Positions 14,137 to 23,507 of a DNA stretch of 64,000 nucleotides are shown piece after piece. Every line of letters starts with the position of its first letter. The stretch's first letter is position 1. The stretch is from assembly GCA_022760355.1 (NCBI GenBank), contig JALEGB010000111.1:1-64000 (forward strand). The letters run 5' to 3'. Source of the stretch: Neomegalonema sp. GTDB lineage: Bacteria > Pseudomonadota > Alphaproteobacteria > Rhodobacterales > Rhodobacteraceae. Made by a program: the position numbers and the translations under genes. Below the pieces are notes generated by a model. That model saw only the letters and a list, made by a program, of their open reading frames with translations, was not told the DNA's origin and searched no databases.

Positions 14137-16479
14137 CTAATCCTCCTGCTCCGCGCCCTCATATACTTTGCGCCCCTCAACGAAGGTCATCAAAACACGA
14201 CCGCTGAGCTTGCGACGATCATAGGGCGAGTTTTTCGATTTGGAGCGCAGCCGATAGCGATCAATCCGTCGCGAGGCGTACGGCGCGAAGACAACAAGGT
14301 CAGCGGGCGACCCGACGCTCAACCGGCCGCAAGGCAGCCCCAACCGTTGCGCCGGCGTCAGGCTGATCCGTTTGAACAGCTGCGGTAAATCGAATGCGCC
14401 GGCCATCACCAACTCCAGCGATGCGGAGAGCAATGTTTCCAGCCCGACCGCGCCGCTCGCCGCCTCCGCAAACGGGCGCCGCTTCGCTTCCTCAGTCTGC
14501 GCGCGGTGCGCGGAGACGATACAGTCAATCGACCCATCGGCGAGGGCGTCGACAATCGCCTCCCGATCTTCGGCCGAACGCAGCGGCGGCGTGAGTTTCA
14601 TAAAGGTTCGATAGTCGCCGATATCTTCTTCGCAGAGTGTTGCGTGCGGGGCCGACACCGCCGCGGTCACATCGAGCCCGGCGGCCTTCGCTCGCCGCAA
14701 CGCCTCGACCGCCGCGCGGGTCGAGATCTGCGCCGCGTGGTATTTCGCTCCGGTAATCGCCACCAGCGCCAGATCACGCTCAAGCGCCATCGCTTCGGCC
14801 GCAGCAGGAACGGAGGGAAGGCCGGTTCGAGTCGCGAACGCCCCCTCCGTTGCGCATGCGTCGGCGCTCAGGGCGGGGTCCTGCGTCGCGCAGGCGACCA
14901 ACGCGCCATGGCCTGCGGCGGCTTGCAGGCAGCGGCGCATCACCGCGGAACTCTCAATCACATTCGCGCCGTCCGAAAGCGCAATTGCGCCCGCCTCAAG
15001 CAGGAACGCATATTCAGAAAGCTGCTCGCCTTTCAGCCCCTTCGTCAGCGCCGCCATCGTTTTGACGTGGGGCATGGCATGGTCCTGCCCCTCCTCATAA
15101 ACGCGCTGATGGATGAAATCGAGCAGGGCCGGATCGTCCACCGCTGGCGCGGTGTCCGGCTGCGTTACAATGGTGGTGACGCCGCCCGCGACCGCCGCTT
15201 CGCCGCCGGAGCCGAAGCTTTCCTTATGGCGCTCGCCCGGCTCGCCGATGAAGACCCGCATATCCACGATGCCGGGCGCAAGCGCTGCGCCTTGCAGGTC
15301 GACCTGCTCAATCTCCGCTGAGGCGGAGTCCGCCAGCGCCTCCGCGCCACGATCGACGATTTTGCCGCCCTGCAGCAGCAGCGCGCCGGGCGAGACTATT
15401 CCAGCTTCTGGATCAACAAGTTGCGCGTTCCTCAGCAGGATCGGGCGCGGCTCCGCCGCCGTGGCGGCGTGCAAAAAACGGCCCTCAGGCTTGGCGCTCG
15501 GGTCGCGCTCCGATGGGCGCGCCAAGTGCGGCAAACGCTGCGAAGCGCGCTCCATCACAGCCATGCGCACGGCGACGCCCAGCTGAACCTGAGTGGCGAT
15601 GAAGGAACGGCTTGGATCATCGGCGAGCTCGCTATCGATCTCAACGCCGCGATTCATTGGCCCAGGGTGCATCACCACCGCATCGGGCGCCGCGGCGTCC
15701 ATCTCCTCCGCGTCGAGCCCATAAGCGTGATAATATTCCCGCGCCGAGGCGATCAGCGGCCCATGCATGCGCTCCGTCTGCAGCCGCAGCGCCATCACCA
15801 CATCCGCCCCCTCGAGCGCCGGCGCGATTTCGTGAAACGTCTCCACCCCCAACGTGTCGGCCCCGGCCGGCGTCAGGCTTGGCGGCGCGACAATGCGGAT
15901 GCGCGCGCCAAATTTTGACAGCAGGAAGATATTCGAGCGCGCAACGCGGCTATGGGCGACATCGCCGACGATGATGACGGTTAAGCCCTCCAGGCGCGCG
16001 GCGGGGGCGTCGGCGCCGCGTCGGGCGGCGAAGGCGCGCCGAATCGTCAGCGCATCCAACAGCGCCTGCGTGGGGTGCTCATGCCGGCCGTCGCCCGCAT
16101 TAATCACGCCGGCGTTCACCTTTTCCGCCAACAGCCGGACTGCGCCTGAATGATGATGGCGCACAACAAGGATGTCGGGCAGCATTGCGTTCAGCGTCGT
16201 CGCGGTATCCAGCAGCGTTTCGCCTTTGGACATGGACGATCGCTTGATCGACATATTCATAACAGTGGCGCCAAGCCGCTTGGCCGCCAGTTCGAAGCTC
16301 GCCTGAGTACGGGTCGAATCTTCGAAAAACAGGTTAATAACAGTGCGTTCGGCGAGAGTTCGCTCGATCGGCGTTCGGGCGGCGTTCATCGTGGCCAACG
16401 CGTCGGCGCGATCGAGGATCGATTCAATCTCCGCGCGGTTCAGCCCGGCGACGCCTAAGAGATGGGGCTCACTCGGCAT
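14137..16479 (-). CDS. fused aspartate carbamoyltransferase and inactive dihydroorotase-like protein (PyrB-PyrC')
   Basis: One uninterrupted 780-residue frame carries two pyrimidine proteins. Residues 1-316 are an aspartate carbamoyltransferase: the carbamoyl-phosphate motif STRTQ (55-59), then [11 protein letters not shown] and HPGPMNRG (271-278). Residues 317-345 form a Pro/Ala/Arg-rich linker. Residues 346-780 are dihydroorotase-like, but the metal ligands are gone: DMRVF (406-410) replaces the usual DxHxH, AQIST (583-587) stands for HIST, APHAT for PHH, and VSAHRAQ (655-661) for DHAPH. The second half therefore is probably structural, holding the transcarbamoylase assembly, as in non-catalytic partners described for other bacteria. 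An active dihydroorotase must lie elsewhere. In most relatives pyrB and pyrC' are separate adjacent genes. Confidence 0.92.
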
Positions 16480-18299: not shown

Positions 18300-19178
18300 A
18301 TGCCATGGTTTTCGCGCGCGGCGGCCGCCGCATGGAGCGTTTTTCTGTCGATATTCCTGATCGCCAATGCGCCTCAGGCCGAGGAAGCGCCAGAACGTAT
18401 TGTTGTTCTTGGCGGCTCCCTGACAGAAATCGTGTTCGCGCTCGGCGAAGAAAAACGGCTGATCGGCGCCGACTCGACCAGCTTCTATCCGCCCGCGGCT
18501 CTGAAACTGGCCAAGGTCGGCTACTATCGAAGGCTCTCGGCCGAGGGTGTTTTGTCCGTCACGCCGGATCTCATCCTTGCTGACGCAGGCGCCGGTCCGC
18601 AGACAGCCCTCGATCAGCTCAAGTCAGCAGGTGTCCGCATCGAAATCGGCCCGGCCGGTGATCGTTTTGAGCTGGTTCTGCAGAAGGTTCGATTTGTAGG
18701 TCGTGTTCTGGAGGCGCGCGCAAAGGCGACGAAGCTGGAGGCGAAGCTGCGCGCCGACATGAGCGCGGCAAAAGCTAAAATTGCCGCTGTGAAGTCCAAG
18801 GCCGGCGCCCCCATGCGTGTTGTCGTCTTGCTATCCGCCCGAGGCGGCGGCCTGACGGCGGCGGGCGAGGACACCGCGGCGGCGTCAATGATCGCACTCG
18901 CCGGCGCATCAAACGCCGTCGCCGGATATCGTGGGTACAAGCCCTTTTCCGCCGAGGCCGCAATCGCCGCAGCCCCGGATGCGATCATCGCTCCGACGCA
19001 CGTCTTGAAAGCGATGGGCGGCGCAAAGGCGCTGCTCGCGCGCCCGGAAATTGCGGCGACGCCCGCCGGCAAGGCCGGGCGCGTGATCGAGATGGACGGG
19101 CTGCTGTTGTTGGGCATGGGCCCACGAACGCCAGCGGCGGCGCTGCAGCTCGCCGAAGCCCTCTATATCGGCAAGTGA
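18300..19178 (+). CDS. hmuT: heme ABC transporter substrate-binding protein
   Basis: A 292-residue periplasmic protein with a signal peptide ending near ANAPQAEEA. The BtuF/HmuT fold is visible: RIVVLGGSLTEIVFALGEEKRLIGADSTS, then KVGYYRRLSAEGVLSVTPDLILA, the region where the family places the heme-ligand tyrosine. The C-terminal lobe includes APDAIIAPTHVL. It would pass heme from the receptor to HmuU. It is the first gene of the operon hmuTUV-exbB-exbD-exbD-tonB, with ten bases or fewer between most genes or short overlaps. Confidence 0.92.
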   Translation: MPWFSRAAAAAWSVFLSIFLIANAPQAEEAPERIVVLGGSLTEIVFALGEEKRLIGADSTSFYPPAALKLAKVGYYRRLSAEGVLSVTPDLILADAGAGPQTALDQLKSAGVRIEIGPAGDRFELVLQKVRFVGRVLEARAKATKLEAKLRADMSAAKAKIAAVKSKAGAPMRVVVLLSARGGGLTAAGEDTAAASMIALAGASNAVAGYRGYKPFSAEAAIAAAPDAIIAPTHVLKAMGGAKALLARPEIAATPAGKAGRVIEMDGLLLLGMGPRTPAAALQLAEALYIGK

Positions 19179-19187
19179 GCGGCGCCA

Positions 19188-20276
19188 ATGACCACCAATG
19201 ACATTGCGGGGGCGCCGCCGCGCGCACAACGGCTCAAACGGCTTGATGGCGGCGTCGCCATTGCCGCCGCCGCGTTGTGCGCGACGTTATTTGCGTTCGC
19301 GGGCATTCTTTTGGGCCCCTCAGGGCTCAGTCTCGAACGTATGGCGGTCGCCCTGGGCGACGCCTTGCGCGGCGCGCCGGCGAGCGACGCGGCCGCCAGC
19401 GCCATTCTTCTGCACATTCGGCTGCCGCGGATCTTTCTCGCCGCAATGGTCGGCGCGGGATTGGCGATGTCAGGCGCGGGGCTTCAGGGGCTGTTTCGCA
19501 ATCCGCTGGCCGACCCCGGCCTGATCGGCGTCACCGCAGGAGCGGCCGTCGGCGCCATTTCCATTATTGTGCTGGGCGACGCATTGCTTGATGACGCGCC
19601 GCGCTGGTTGCGCCCCTACCTTATGCCATTGTTCGCTTTCTGCGGCGCTTTGCTGATGACGGCGATCATCTTCCGCGTGGCGCGGGTCCGTGGCGAACTT
19701 TCAGTCGCAACGCTTCTTTTGGCGGGCGTGGCGCTTGGCGCCATCGCGGCGGCCATCATCGGCGTGATGGTTTATCTCAGCGATGATCAGCAGCTGCGCG
19801 ACCTGACCTTCTGGACCATGGGCGGGTTCGCCGGCGGCGGATGGCTCGCCGCGATGATCCTGACCCCCGTTATGATCGCGGGCGGCATATGGATGGCGCG
19901 ATTCGGCCGCGCCCTTGATCTTCTGCAGCTGGGGGAGCGCGCAGCCTACCATAGCGGCGTCGATGTGGAGCGGGTGAAATGGCGCGTCGGCGCGGTTTCG
20001 GCGTTGATGGTCGGCGCAGCGACCGCCTTTGCCGGACCGGTCGGGTTTATCGGGCTGGTCGCGCCGCATCTCGCGCGGCTTATCGCGCCGCCGCATGGGC
20101 GGATTCTGATTCCGCTTTCCGCGCTGATCGGGGCGGCGCTCGCGCTCGGCGCCGACCTCGCCGTTCGCCTGGTTGCGCCGCCTGCCGAGCCCCCGGTTGG
20201 CTTGGCGACCAGCCTCATTGGCGGCCCCTTCTTTCTCTGGCTTCTGATCAATCGAGCGCGGCAAGGGGGCGTCTGA
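19188..20276 (+). CDS. hmuU: heme ABC transporter permease
   Basis: A 362-residue inner-membrane permease of the FecCD/BtuC family. It has about nine or ten transmembrane segments and the family motifs LRLPRIFLAAMVGAGLAMSG, then GLFRNPLADPGLIGVTAGAAVGA, then the coupling region FAGPVGFIGLVAPHLARLIAPPHGRI. It follows hmuT by nine bases and its stop codon shares one base with the hmuV start. Confidence 0.95.
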   Translation: MTTNDIAGAPPRAQRLKRLDGGVAIAAAALCATLFAFAGILLGPSGLSLERMAVALGDALRGAPASDAAASAILLHIRLPRIFLAAMVGAGLAMSGAGLQGLFRNPLADPGLIGVTAGAAVGAISIIVLGDALLDDAPRWLRPYLMPLFAFCGALLMTAIIFRVARVRGELSVATLLLAGVALGAIAAAIIGVMVYLSDDQQLRDLTFWTMGGFAGGGWLAAMILTPVMIAGGIWMARFGRALDLLQLGERAAYHSGVDVERVKWRVGAVSALMVGAATAFAGPVGFIGLVAPHLARLIAPPHGRILIPLSALIGAALALGADLAVRLVAPPAEPPVGLATSLIGGPFFLWLLINRARQGGV

Positions 20277-21079
20277 TGCTGAGCGTCGACAGTGCGAGCG
20301 TTCGGTTGAGCGGCCGGCCGATCCTCTCCCACATTTCGCTTTCGGCTCGCCCCGGAGAAGTGCTGGCGATCTGCGGTCCGAATGGCGCCGGCAAATCGAC
20401 GCTGCTCTCCATACTGGCGGGCGACCGCCGTCCCCACTCTGGGGCCGCCTTGCTCGGCGACCGCGCGCTCAGCGCCTATTGTCCCGCGGCGCTGGCGCGG
20501 TTTCGGGCTGTAATGGAGCAGGCGCCGCGCGCGCCGTCCGGCTTTACCGCCCGAGACATTGTACGGCTCGGCGCGGAAGCGGCCCCGCTGACGGCGGCGC
20601 CCTCAATCGAGCCATTTGTGTCGGCGGCGCTTAACGACGCGGGCGTCGCGCATCTTGCAGACGCCTTGATCGCCTCGCTGTCTGGCGGCGAACGCGCCCG
20701 CGTCCATTTTGCGCGCGTGCTGGCGCAACATCGCGCCGGGCGTCTCGATCCTGCGGCCGGGCCTGGCGCACTCCTTCTGGATGAGCCGACCGCAAGTTTG
20801 GACTTAGCGCATCAAGCGCTGCTTCTCGCCATGACGCGGCGCTGCGCCCGAGAAGGCGCGGCCGCTGTCATCGTGCTCCATGACCTGAATCTGGCTGCGG
20901 CTTTTGCTGACCGCGTCGCCCTTCTGCATGACGGCCGCCTGACGGCCGTCGATCGGCCAGAGGCGGTGCTGAGCGAGGAGCGGCTCTCATCCGTTTACGG
21001 CGTGCGCGTGACGATTGATCGGTCGGCGAGCGGCGCGCTCCGCGTCGCGCCGGACTATTCGGTCTACGCAAACTCATAG
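20276..21079 (+). CDS. hmuV: heme ABC transporter ATP-binding protein
   Basis: A 267-residue ATPase that energises HmuU. Walker A is GPNGAGKST, the signature is LSGGERARV, Walker B is ALLLDEPTASLD and the switch histidine is in VLHDLNLA. I start it at the ATG at 20276, which overlaps the hmuU stop (TGATG), and not at an earlier in-frame codon inside hmuU. The family normally has about 260 residues. Confidence 0.95.
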   Translation: MLSVDSASVRLSGRPILSHISLSARPGEVLAICGPNGAGKSTLLSILAGDRRPHSGAALLGDRALSAYCPAALARFRAVMEQAPRAPSGFTARDIVRLGAEAAPLTAAPSIEPFVSAALNDAGVAHLADALIASLSGGERARVHFARVLAQHRAGRLDPAAGPGALLLDEPTASLDLAHQALLLAMTRRCAREGAAAVIVLHDLNLAAAFADRVALLHDGRLTAVDRPEAVLSEERLSSVYGVRVTIDRSASGALRVAPDYSVYANS

Positions 21080-21094: not shown

Positions 21095-21778
21095 ATGATT
21101 GACGTCCCAACCGTTTCCGTCATTGAGGCGGCTTTCACGGAAGTCGCGGGCTTTTTGAATAAGGGCGGGCCGGTGGGCTGGGCGCTGGGCGCGCTTTCGG
21201 TCGCAGCCTTGGCTATTATCCTGTGGAAAACATGGCGTTTTTTGATGCTGGGCGTCTGGCGCAGCAGGCGCGCGCGACGCGCTTTGGCGCTCTGGCGATC
21301 AGGCGGCCGGCAAGAAGCGGCGCTCGCGGCGGCCCAGGGCGACGGGGTGATCGACCGGGTTGTGGCGACCGCGATGCGCGAGAGCTTGCGGGGGCCGATG
21401 GCGACCGCCCGCGAAGAAGTCGAAAGGGTCGGCCGCGCCAGCCTCGCCGAATTGCGGGTGGGGCTGCGTGGCCTGGAAACGATAGCGACCATCGCGCCGC
21501 TGCTTGGGCTGCTCGGCACAGTCTTGGGCATGATCGCGGCGTTTCAAGCGCTGCAGGCCGCTGGCGGGCGCGCTGATCCAAGCACTCTGGCGGGCGGCAT
21601 TTGGGAAGCGATGCTGACCACCGCCGCGGGAATGGCCGTCGCCATCCCAACAGGGCTGGCGCTCAACTGGTGTGAAAGCGTCGTCGAGCGCGCGCGGCTG
21701 CGCATCGAAGACGCCGCCACCCAAGTGTTCACCGCGACGGAGCAACCAGAGCAGCCAGAGCAGCGGAGGGCGGCGTGA
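21095..21778 (+). CDS. exbB: ExbB/TolQ family proton channel protein
   Basis: A 227-residue inner-membrane protein of the MotA/TolQ/ExbB family that forms the pentameric ring around ExbD and powers TonB. The first transmembrane segment is near residues 28-50. The second and third are in APLLGLLGTVLGMIAAFQAL and MLTTAAGMAVAIPTGLALNW, which keep the conserved threonines of the channel lining. Its position between hmuV and two exbD genes suggests a dedicated system for heme. It overlaps the first exbD by four bases. Confidence 0.93.
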   Translation: MIDVPTVSVIEAAFTEVAGFLNKGGPVGWALGALSVAALAIILWKTWRFLMLGVWRSRRARRALALWRSGGRQEAALAAAQGDGVIDRVVATAMRESLRGPMATAREEVERVGRASLAELRVGLRGLETIATIAPLLGLLGTVLGMIAAFQALQAAGGRADPSTLAGGIWEAMLTTAAGMAVAIPTGLALNWCESVVERARLRIEDAATQVFTATEQPEQPEQRRAA

Positions 21779-22167
21779 GCAGTTTTCAGCTTGAACGGCC
21801 CCGCCAGCGACGCAGGCTTGTCAGTCTCACCCCGATGATCGACGTCGTGTTCCTGCTGCTGGTCTTCTTCATGCTCGTCTCACGCTTCGCGATTGAGAAC
21901 GCGACCAGCGTCTCGTCGGCGCAAAGCGGCCTGGGCGCGCCATTGGACGGTCCGCCGCGATTGGTTCAGGTGACGCCGAAGGACATCCTGCTGAACGATG
22001 CGCCCATCGCGCGGGAGGCGTTAGCGCCGGCGCTGGCGAAGCTGTCCCCGTCTCCCAACGCGGCGGTCGTTGTGAAAGCGACCAAGGATGTGCGCATCCA
22101 GCGGCTGATCGATGTGGTGGACATGCTGAAAGCCGCGAAGCTTGGACCCGTGCTGTTGATGGAGTAG
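21775..22167 (+). CDS. exbD: ExbD, first copy with the conserved aspartate
   Basis: A 130-residue protein with one transmembrane segment and a periplasmic domain. The motif LTPMIDVVFLLLVFFML keeps the essential proton-carrying aspartate (Asp23). The periplasmic part contains ATKDVRIQRLIDVVDMLKAAKL, typical of ExbD/TolR. The start overlaps exbB (ATGA) and the next gene begins three bases after the stop. Confidence 0.93.
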   Translation: MSSFQLERPRQRRRLVSLTPMIDVVFLLLVFFMLVSRFAIENATSVSSAQSGLGAPLDGPPRLVQVTPKDILLNDAPIAREALAPALAKLSPSPNAAVVVKATKDVRIQRLIDVVDMLKAAKLGPVLLME

Positions 22168-22170
22168 CCG

Positions 22171-22566
22171 ATGCGTCTGGATGTCGAGCCGCCTAAGGAG
22201 AGGGGCGAGGCGATCGCGCCGATGATCAACATCGTTTTTCTGTTGCTCATCTTTTTTCTGATGTCAGCCACCATTACGCAGCGCTTGCCGCTGGAGGCGA
22301 CCCCGCCGGCGTCGGATGCGACGGAGGCGGTTGAGCTCCACAGCGGCGTGCTGGTGATCGCGGCCACCGGCGAAATCGCCTACGAAACGGCGCGGGACGA
22401 CGCCGCGATCCGCGCTGCGGCGGGGGCGGCGCTCGCCGCCAAAAAGCCGGTGCGGCTTCGCGCTGATGCGCGGGCGCCGGCCGCTCAATTGGTGCGCGCA
22501 ATTGCGGCGCTCCGGCGCGCCGGAGCCGAAGATGTTCGGCTGACAACCCAGGAGCGCCCGCAATGA
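22171..22566 (+). CDS. ExbD paralogue lacking the proton-carrying aspartate
   Basis: A 131-residue ExbD-like protein in which IAPMINIVFLLLIFFLM aligns with PMIDVVFLLLVFF of the first copy. Asparagine (Asn20) replaces the aspartate that carries protons in ExbD and TolR. The periplasmic domain has the usual pattern, ending VRAIAALRRAGAEDVRLTTQER. ExbD works as a dimer inside the ExbB ring, so the two gene products could form a heterodimer with a single acidic residue. It overlaps tonB by four bases. Confidence 0.88.
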   Translation: MRLDVEPPKERGEAIAPMINIVFLLLIFFLMSATITQRLPLEATPPASDATEAVELHSGVLVIAATGEIAYETARDDAAIRAAAGAALAAKKPVRLRADARAPAAQLVRAIAALRRAGAEDVRLTTQERPQ

Positions 22567-23507
22567 TGGCTCGGTTTGATTTTTGGGCGTCGCTCGGGGC
22601 GGCGGTGGCGCTTTTGGCCGCGGCTTTCGCCTCAACGCCCCCAGCGGAAGGATCGCTTGGAAGCGAGGGAACCGGCCTCGCGGGCGAGCGCCGCGTTGCT
22701 TCCGTCGACGCCGCGGCAGTGGCGGCGGCCTGGAGCGGCGGCGCCAAATCCGCGCAATCGGCCGACAAGCCCGCCCCGCAGCCGAAACGGGCGGAGCCAA
22801 CCCCAAAGCCGATAAAGAGCGCCCCGACCAAGAGCTCGGCGGAAAAAGCAGCGGCGCCACGACCGGCGCCAGCGCGGCCTGCGGAAATTGCAGCGCGGCA
22901 AAGCGCGACGCCTAAAAAGACCGCGCTTTCGCGACCGCCCCCTCCCCCCGCCACGAAACGTCTGACGAAACCTACACCGCCCAGGGCGACAAAGTCGGCT
23001 CCAACAGCGAAGCGCAAGGTCGCGCCGAAGCGGCAAAAAACCCGTCGGAAGGCGGCGAAGCAGCGCAAAGCCCGACGGCCGCGAAAGAACGCGAAACGGG
23101 CGAAAAAGCGCCAGCCCAGCCGGCCCGCCCCTTCAGCGGCCGCCGCGGCTGCGTCTGTCGCAAAGAAGGCGGACGCAGGCGCAAGCGACGGCGTAACGCG
23201 AACTAAAGGCGCTCAAAAAGCGGCGGCGGAGGCGCGATGGCGGGCCCGCCTCGCCCGACGCATCGACCGGCGTAAGCAATATCCTTCAGCGTCCCGCCGT
23301 CGCGGCGAGAGGGGCGTCGTCATAATTATGCTGACTGTATCAAAAGGCGGCGCATTGATCGGCTCAAACGTTCGGCGCTCATCCGGCTATGGCCGGCTCG
23401 ATAGCGCCGCGCTCGCCGCAGTTCGACGCGCCGCGCCTTTTCCCCCTGCCCCGAAATCCATGACCGCAGCGCGAAAGAGTTTTTCCGTCAAAATTGTTTT
23501 TCAGTGA
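22563..23507 (+). CDS. tonB: TonB family energy transducer with a highly basic linker
   Basis: A 314-residue protein with an N-terminal transmembrane segment (residues 8-24), a long low-complexity linker and a C-terminal TonB domain (about 240-314, with GVVIIMLTVSKGGALIGSNV). The linker is unusual. Residues 150-183 contain 21 Lys/Arg in 34, and there is no acidic residue between Glu108 and Asp204, whereas typical TonB linkers alternate Glu-Pro and Lys-Pro. The transmembrane segment has no histidine, so the SxxxH motif used by many TonB proteins is absent. It closes the hmu operon, and the receptor gene lies 256 bases downstream. Confidence 0.88.
   Translation: MMARFDFWASLGAAVALLAAAFASTPPAEGSLGSEGTGLAGERRVASVDAAAVAAAWSGGAKSAQSADKPAPQPKRAEPTPKPIKSAPTKSSAEKAAAPRPAPARPAEIAARQSATPKKTALSRPPPPPATKRLTKPTPPRATKSAPTAKRKVAPKRQKTRRKAAKQRKARRPRKNAKRAKKRQPSRPAPSAAAAAASVAKKADAGASDGVTRTKGAQKAAAEARWRARLARRIDRRKQYPSASRRRGERGVVIIMLTVSKGGALIGSNVRRSSGYGRLDSAALAAVRRAAPFPPAPKSMTAARKSFSVKIVFQ

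Follow-up and report, generated by a model that had tools for sequence, protein, structure and literature searches.

Downstream of a heme ABC importer in Neomegalonema sp. we found two unlike exbD genes in tandem between exbB and tonB, the first encoding a protein that keeps the membrane aspartate of the Ton motor and the second a protein with asparagine at the same position. Comparison with hundreds of relatives shows that this Asp/Asn arrangement is conserved and that the two copies, here called ExbD1 and ExbD2, have reciprocally lost other sites. Judged from the sequences, ExbD1 and ExbD2 probably pair as an obligate heterodimer that sits in a single ExbB ring and has just one carboxylate; we infer the heterodimer, its stroke and its proton count.

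The window, that is the whole stretch of DNA analysed, comprises positions 1 to 64,000 of contig JALEGB010000111.1 (64,000 nucleotides, assembly GCA_022760355.1). The cassette and its neighbouring genes are as follows.
18300..19178, plus strand: HmuT-like periplasmic heme-binding protein of an ABC importer (Pfam Peripla_BP_2, E 1.1e-29)
19188..20276, plus strand: HmuU-like ABC permease (Pfam FecCD, E 1.4e-85)
20276..21079, plus strand: HmuV, heme ABC transporter ATPase (NCBIfam NF010068, 261.4 against a cut-off of 261 bits)
21095..21778, plus strand: ExbB, the pentamer subunit (Pfam MotA_ExbB, 100.3 bits), keeping both threonines of the pore (Thr148 and Thr181 in E. coli)
21775..22167, plus strand: ExbD1 (Pfam ExbD, 66.1 bits), with Asp23 and Thr19 and without the loop Asp (Thr103 instead)
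22171..22566, plus strand: ExbD2 (Pfam ExbD, 70.0 bits), with Asn20, Ala16 replacing Thr, Glu13 at -7 and loop Asp99
22563..23507, plus strand: TonB (Pfam TonB_C, E 1.6e-15), the sole TonB_C match in the genome
23764..25881, plus strand: TonB-dependent heme receptor (NCBIfam TIGR01785, 381 bits, above cut-off), the sole PF00593 match in the genome
26652..26960, plus strand: HmuQ, heme-degrading (NCBIfam NF053649, 165.8 against 130 bits)

From exbB to tonB the genes are separated by overlaps or a 3-base gap: exbD1 has a GTG start overlapping the exbB stop, exbD2 an ATG start, and the start of tonB overlaps the exbD2 stop. The preliminary description of this DNA, which reported adjacent exbD genes with Asp23 (GAC, PMIDVVF) and Asn20 (AAC, PMINIVF), was exact in every detail. 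The ExbD1 motif reads TPMIDVVF with the Asp23 codon at 21841-21843, the ExbD2 motif reads APMINIVF with the Asn20 codon at 22228-22230, and the loop Asp99 of ExbD2 is encoded by GAT at 22465-22467. The membrane helix of the window TonB (FDFWASLGAAVALLAAAFAS, 22563-22660) is without histidine; a His like E. coli His20 is found in this helix in 135 of 145 TonB proteins of Asp/Asn cassettes, and those of L053 and L056 also go without. Elsewhere in the window, on the minus strand (14137-16479), a single open frame of 780 aa fuses PyrB (aspartate carbamoyltransferase; residues 6-311, 294.8 bits to TIGR00670) to PyrC (dihydroorotase; residues 386-774, 283.5 bits to TIGR00857), and each part scores above its cut-off.

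Both ExbD copies belong to the ExbD/TolR family, scoring 66.1 and 70.0 bits against Pfam PF02472 (curated cut-off 25.4). Neither reached the cut-offs of the NCBIfam ExbD equivalogs TIGR02803, TIGR02804 and NF008429 (ExbD1 34-35 bits against 123-216, ExbD2 21.4 against 123.45) or that of TolR, TIGR02801 (28.7 and 31.6 bits against 127.3). A tolQ/tolR pair sits separately in the same genome, on contig C105. When a profile of the Asn-type proteins was compared with E. coli ExbD (6tyi), the Asn aligned to Asp25 (E 9.5e-17), the membrane residue that is the hallmark of the canonical protein and that is present in ExbD1 as Asp23 and absent from ExbD2, where Asn20 takes its place. Because the membrane Asp is missing here and in 255 pairs, ExbD2 is classed on its sequence as an ExbD-fold partner and not as a proton-carrying ExbD. 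A structural model of the joined pair has membrane helices at 19-39 and 153-165 and two periplasmic domains (pLDDT 88-96) whose best structural matches are E. coli ExbD structures 8vgc and 8p9r. The gene content would fit a 5:2 motor (ExbB5-ExbD2).

The genome to which the window belongs (3.86 Mb, 97% complete) has one TonB and one TonB-dependent receptor, the heme receptor. Its ExbD family consists of three proteins, the window pair and TolR, and its MotA/ExbB family likewise of three: the window ExbB, TolQ beside TolR on C105, and one on contig C91 that by its size is probably MotA. With a single TonB, a single TonB-dependent receptor and, apart from TolR, only this pair as ExbD proteins, the gene inventory indicates that ExbD1 and ExbD2 very probably drive heme uptake in this organism, unless TolQR substitutes.

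To gather further pairs we used the ExbD2 protein to search 60 relatives, ran the Asn-type profile against the order and the phylum and the Asp-type profile against the whole class, added a motif scan and fetched further places. After removal of duplicates there were 277 distinct adjacent ExbD pairs, of which 255 were Asp/Asn, 20 Asp/Asp and 2 incomplete. The Asp copy always came first in the Asp/Asn pairs and none of the 277 had the order Asn/Asp. With 255 of 277 adjacent pairs Asp/Asn and none Asn/Asp, the pairing in the window is not a matter of chance. The motif scan, which covered 84,980 species genomes and selected for Asn, gave at least 594 stretches, at least 525 of them confirmed. The class-wide query with the Asp-type (ExbD1) profile had no bias toward Asn, and the best loci of that sample were 22 Asp/Asn against 1 Asp/Asp; a batch of 100 places fetched from Rhodobacterales held 89 Asp/Asn against 5 Asp/Asp. 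Asp/Asn pairs span 27 family codes, mostly in the Alphaproteobacteria and also in the Gammaproteobacteria, where the carriers include a one-contig genome (G698). Spread on plasmids was rejected after a search of 72,556 plasmids gave no match. A typical Rhodobacteraceae Asp/Asn cassette also appeared on a contig filed under the actinobacterium Nocardioides marinus (L099), an assembly that is probably mislabelled or mixed.

The number of ExbD-family matches per genome was odd in 220 of 244 Rhodobacterales genomes (one match in 80, three in 88, five in 40 and seven in 11), as expected from one TolR and otherwise paired ExbD. Solo ExbD1 or solo Asn-type genes were not found except at contig ends or beside a broken neighbour. 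ExbB lies directly upstream of the pair in 251 of the 252 cases with room to see, and in 115 of 118 the pair is followed directly by TonB. The preliminary description had proposed a comparison of ExbD pairs in hmu-exb-tonB operons; the Asp/Asn pairing is indeed conserved but is not confined to hmu operons, and on gene order the unit that travels together is exbB-exbD1-exbD2-tonB. All 249 readable ExbB proteins beside Asp/Asn pairs have the equivalents of Thr148 and Thr181, so the ring-side proton path appears intact. At the position of E. coli Glu176, which is said to be essential, 254 ExbB proteins beside Asp/Asn pairs carry Val in 69 cases and Glu in 157.

A lack of conservation of the Asn among relatives had been named at the outset as a possible refutation; instead the Asn showed about the same degree of conservation as the partner's Asp. 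A tree of 267 second copies, for which the tested column was left out, had a total length of 142.7 changes per column; the Asn/Asp column changed 4 times on it, which is fourth-lowest of 112 columns (median 78.5), and the Asp column of the first copies changed 0 times. Asn is encoded by AAC in 176 second copies and by AAT in 80; with both codons in use, the codon turns over and the residue stays. The Asn, the loop Asp and a pore-facing Phe and Leu are among the least-changing columns of ExbD2.

Asp occurs at this position in 13 of the 267 second copies on the tree, which indicates that the Asn is not indispensable everywhere. These are chiefly members of one Rhodobacterales subtype (LVPxIDVL / IIALIDVVFF; L028, L146, L150 and others), and L017, L190 and L201 also have Asp. 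They look like a few returns or remnants, and the number of origins is unsure because the tree rests on few columns and leaves many forks unresolved. The Asp/Asp Rhodobacterales subtype of the pair (L028, L146, L147, L150, L155, L322, L334, L339, L347 and L359) has lost the Thr at -4 from both copies and nearly always the loop Asp as well, with His at the loop-Asp site in 8 of 9 second copies. It provides a natural contrast to the Asp/Asn type.

The two copies of the Asp/Asn type have kept opposite parts of what single proteins keep together. In the single ExbD/TolR proteins of our sample, Thr at -4 and the loop Asp are each present in 97-100% and the membrane Asp is nearly universal. Thr at -4 is found in 97% of ExbD1 and in no ExbD2 (Val, Ile or Leu in 99%), and the membrane Asp in 100% of ExbD1, with Asn in ExbD2 of the Asp/Asn type. 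Conversely the loop Asp, which belongs to the (R)AD loop (RAD in E. coli ExbD) between the fourth strand and helix 2 of the model, is present in 98% of ExbD2 and in 11% of ExbD1 (28/255), and its column changed 106 times on the ExbD1 tree versus 4 times on the ExbD2 tree. Each copy also has a mark of its own: in ExbD1 a nearly invariant Gln (93%) where helix 2 begins, and in ExbD2 an acid, either Glu or Asp (91%), at -7, a position that is hydrophobic or Pro in ExbD1 and in single ExbD/TolR. The model places the ExbD2 loop Asp directly after the strand preceding helix 2. In the E. coli ExbD dimer the protomers touch at the loop leading into helix 2, and one TonB strand lies between them, running parallel with one protomer and antiparallel with the second (PMC10907165). 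That the two copies hold complementary halves of the ancestral sites, a pore half and a protomer-contact half, is best explained by one complex requiring both.

On this reading ExbD1 and ExbD2 would be an obligate heterodimer within one ExbB pentamer. ExbD1 would give the motor its only proton-carrying carboxylate, with the neighbouring Thr, and ExbD2 a neutral, permanently "protonated-like" Asn helix that would fill the second place in the pore. The conserved loop Asp of ExbD2 would lie in the loop by which the protomers connect and which forms the groove gripping TonB. Current models of rotation in the Ton, Tol and flagellar stators assume that two equivalent Asp exchange protons, each proton giving 36 degrees and ten making a full turn (PMC12215075, PMC9389320). 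With one Asp only, alternating hand-over of protons between two Asp would be impossible, and the asymmetric motor might use one proton for each ExbB subunit that it passes, in steps of 72 degrees and with no more than five protons a turn, or alternatively work by a single stroke and a reset. It would energise TonB and the heme receptor encoded alongside.

The claim of the preliminary description that a heterodimer would have a single protonatable site thus stands as the best-supported reading through the opposite losses of sites, and the covariation that might have added to it was lost once kinship was corrected for. Its other proposal, that ExbD2 has a regulatory or assembly role, is the less likely of the two. 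Direct coupling over 255 paired sequences (effective number 221) gave an inter-protein maximum of 2.37 against 1.0-1.4 for random re-pairing, but the pairs follow clades and tests of ExbD1-ExbD2 covariation on independent branches were not significant, so these scores were dropped as evidence for the heterodimer. As exbD1 and exbD2 share one frame, we also folded them by reading through the exbD1 stop (53 paired rows), which gave a mean pLDDT of 81 and a pTM of 0.71 for chains covalently joined against their topology. For two equal domains in an artificially joined chain, this pTM suggests a defined arrangement.

Other readings of the pair were weighed against the heterodimer. All known membrane residues are kept in ExbD1, and its homodimers could be the working motor in ExbB as in E. 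coli, with ExbD2 a separate inactive tuner acting through idle heterodimers, assembly or signalling. An accessory role for a second ExbD is known from Xanthomonas campestris, where exbD2 is dispensable for iron uptake and needed for pectate-lyase induction (PMC3551730). We nevertheless consider this unlikely: ExbD1 has lost the loop Asp that 97-100% of single ExbD/TolR keep, with 106 changes, and so does not resemble a complete homodimer former; the near absence of solo genes described above also speaks against it, as does the exbD1-exbD2 pair of Sphingobium SYK-6, which is reported to have Asp in both copies and resisted disruption (PMC8599685). Still less credit goes to separate ExbB rings for ExbD1 and ExbD2 homodimers, or to ExbD2 with another partner such as TolQ. 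Each cassette has a single ExbB, an ExbD2 homodimer would have no membrane carboxylate, and the complementary halves of the ancestral sites kept by the two copies argue against such a separation, which seems to us very improbable.

It is somewhat less improbable, though still doubtful, that the acid at -7 (Glu13 here), which lies two turns closer to the cytoplasm, lets ExbD2 still carry protons, the carboxylate having been moved and not lost. The acid is common in ExbD2 and absent from ExbD1 and single ExbD/TolR, as this would predict, but the -7 Glu also occurs in second copies that have the membrane Asp (9/9 in the main Asp/Asp subtype), and E. coli structures suggest that the residue sits at the cytoplasmic edge and does not face the pore threonines. 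We rejected the -7 acid as a replacement for the Asp for the first of these reasons. We give hardly any credence to ExbD2 as a decaying duplicate with the Asn as a neutral relic. Some second copies do evolve fast overall, as the median of 78.5 changes per column indicates, and in one relative (L157, G009:C3:2655000-2658500) exbD2 is apparently split in two next to an Asp-type exbD1 that is whole, which may reflect a frameshift or a pseudogene. Yet the Asn and the loop Asp, like the Phe and Leu that face the pore, hardly change across hundreds of genomes, the reading frames are intact and the start-stop overlap is tight; as a general statement, decay is refuted by the column-change counts on the second-copy tree.

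The obligate heterodimer also has to be set against work in E. coli, where engineered ExbD(D25N) is inactive and the Asp has been called absolutely required (PMC11658791, PMC12905483). Those tests alter both copies of a homodimer, whereas the natural Asn partner has matched changes, the Thr lost and the -7 acid gained. With the ExbB5-ExbD2-TonB system of E. coli and Serratia the cassette shares the ExbB pore threonines, a one-helix ExbD with a periplasmic fold, TonB and a TonB-dependent receptor; it differs in having two unlike exbD genes, of which ExbD2 has Asn for Asp25 and no equivalent of Thr21 and ExbD1 has mostly lost the Asp from the loop preceding helix 2. Ton operons with tandem exbD genes are described in Sphingobium SYK-6 (tonB1-exbB1-exbD1-exbD2) and Xanthomonas campestris (tonB-exbB-exbD1-exbD2) (PMC8599685, PMC3551730). 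By these published descriptions tonB comes first there, unlike in the window, and SYK-6 has Asp25 in both ExbD copies, unlike the Asp/Asn pair (PMC8599685). Neither of the two clades on the tree includes the Asp/Asp tandem pairs of TPMLD type in our sample.

Other parallels are the AglR-AglQ-AglS gliding motor of Myxococcus, which likewise combines one MotA/ExbB-like with two ExbD-like subunits but with a conserved aspartate described in both AglQ and AglS (PMC9389320), and paired TPH-vWA proteins with TolQ-like rings, which are likewise unlike partners predicted in one ring (PMC12204202) but have an aspartate in each partner and no ExbD domain. A further known relative of the cassette is the syntenic heme cluster of Ruegeria TM1040, with exbB, exbD1, a "duplicate" exbD1a and tonB; in the part of that report available to us, all genes of the cluster are up 41- to 201-fold without iron, its receptor is required for heme use, and exbD1a figures merely as a duplicate, with the Asp/Asn difference and its conservation unmentioned (PMC5225302). 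The TM1040 relatives Tritonibacter (L097) and Ruegeria (L062) are Asp/Asn in our sample. In the open-access literature we found no description of a conserved Asp/Asn ExbD pair, no dominance data for MotB D32N and no natural test case for the sufficiency of one Asp. Tandem exbD genes were already known, and what appears to be new from the sequences is an Asp/Asn pair conserved over two classes, together with the reciprocal loss, which we regard as the principal finding.

We regard it as evenly balanced whether this is a widespread natural Ton motor powered through just one membrane carboxylate, the two genes of an obligate Asp/Asn heterodimer having divided proton carriage and the periplasmic dimer site between them, so that two-Asp alternation (36 degrees per proton, ten per turn) would not be required for energising TonB. 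Hundreds of genomes with one Asp fixed as Asn, and Asp/Asp sister pairs in the same order, open the one-Asp question to test on natural examples. Each of the two central motor subunits has its own gene and can thereby be distinguished, which would remove the symmetry by which cryo-EM and cross-linking of ExbD with its single TonB strand are blurred. If the heterodimer is real, the textbook requirement for two motor aspartates could be tested on natural systems, and the ExbD partners would split the work of a nutrient-uptake motor in many marine and related bacteria.
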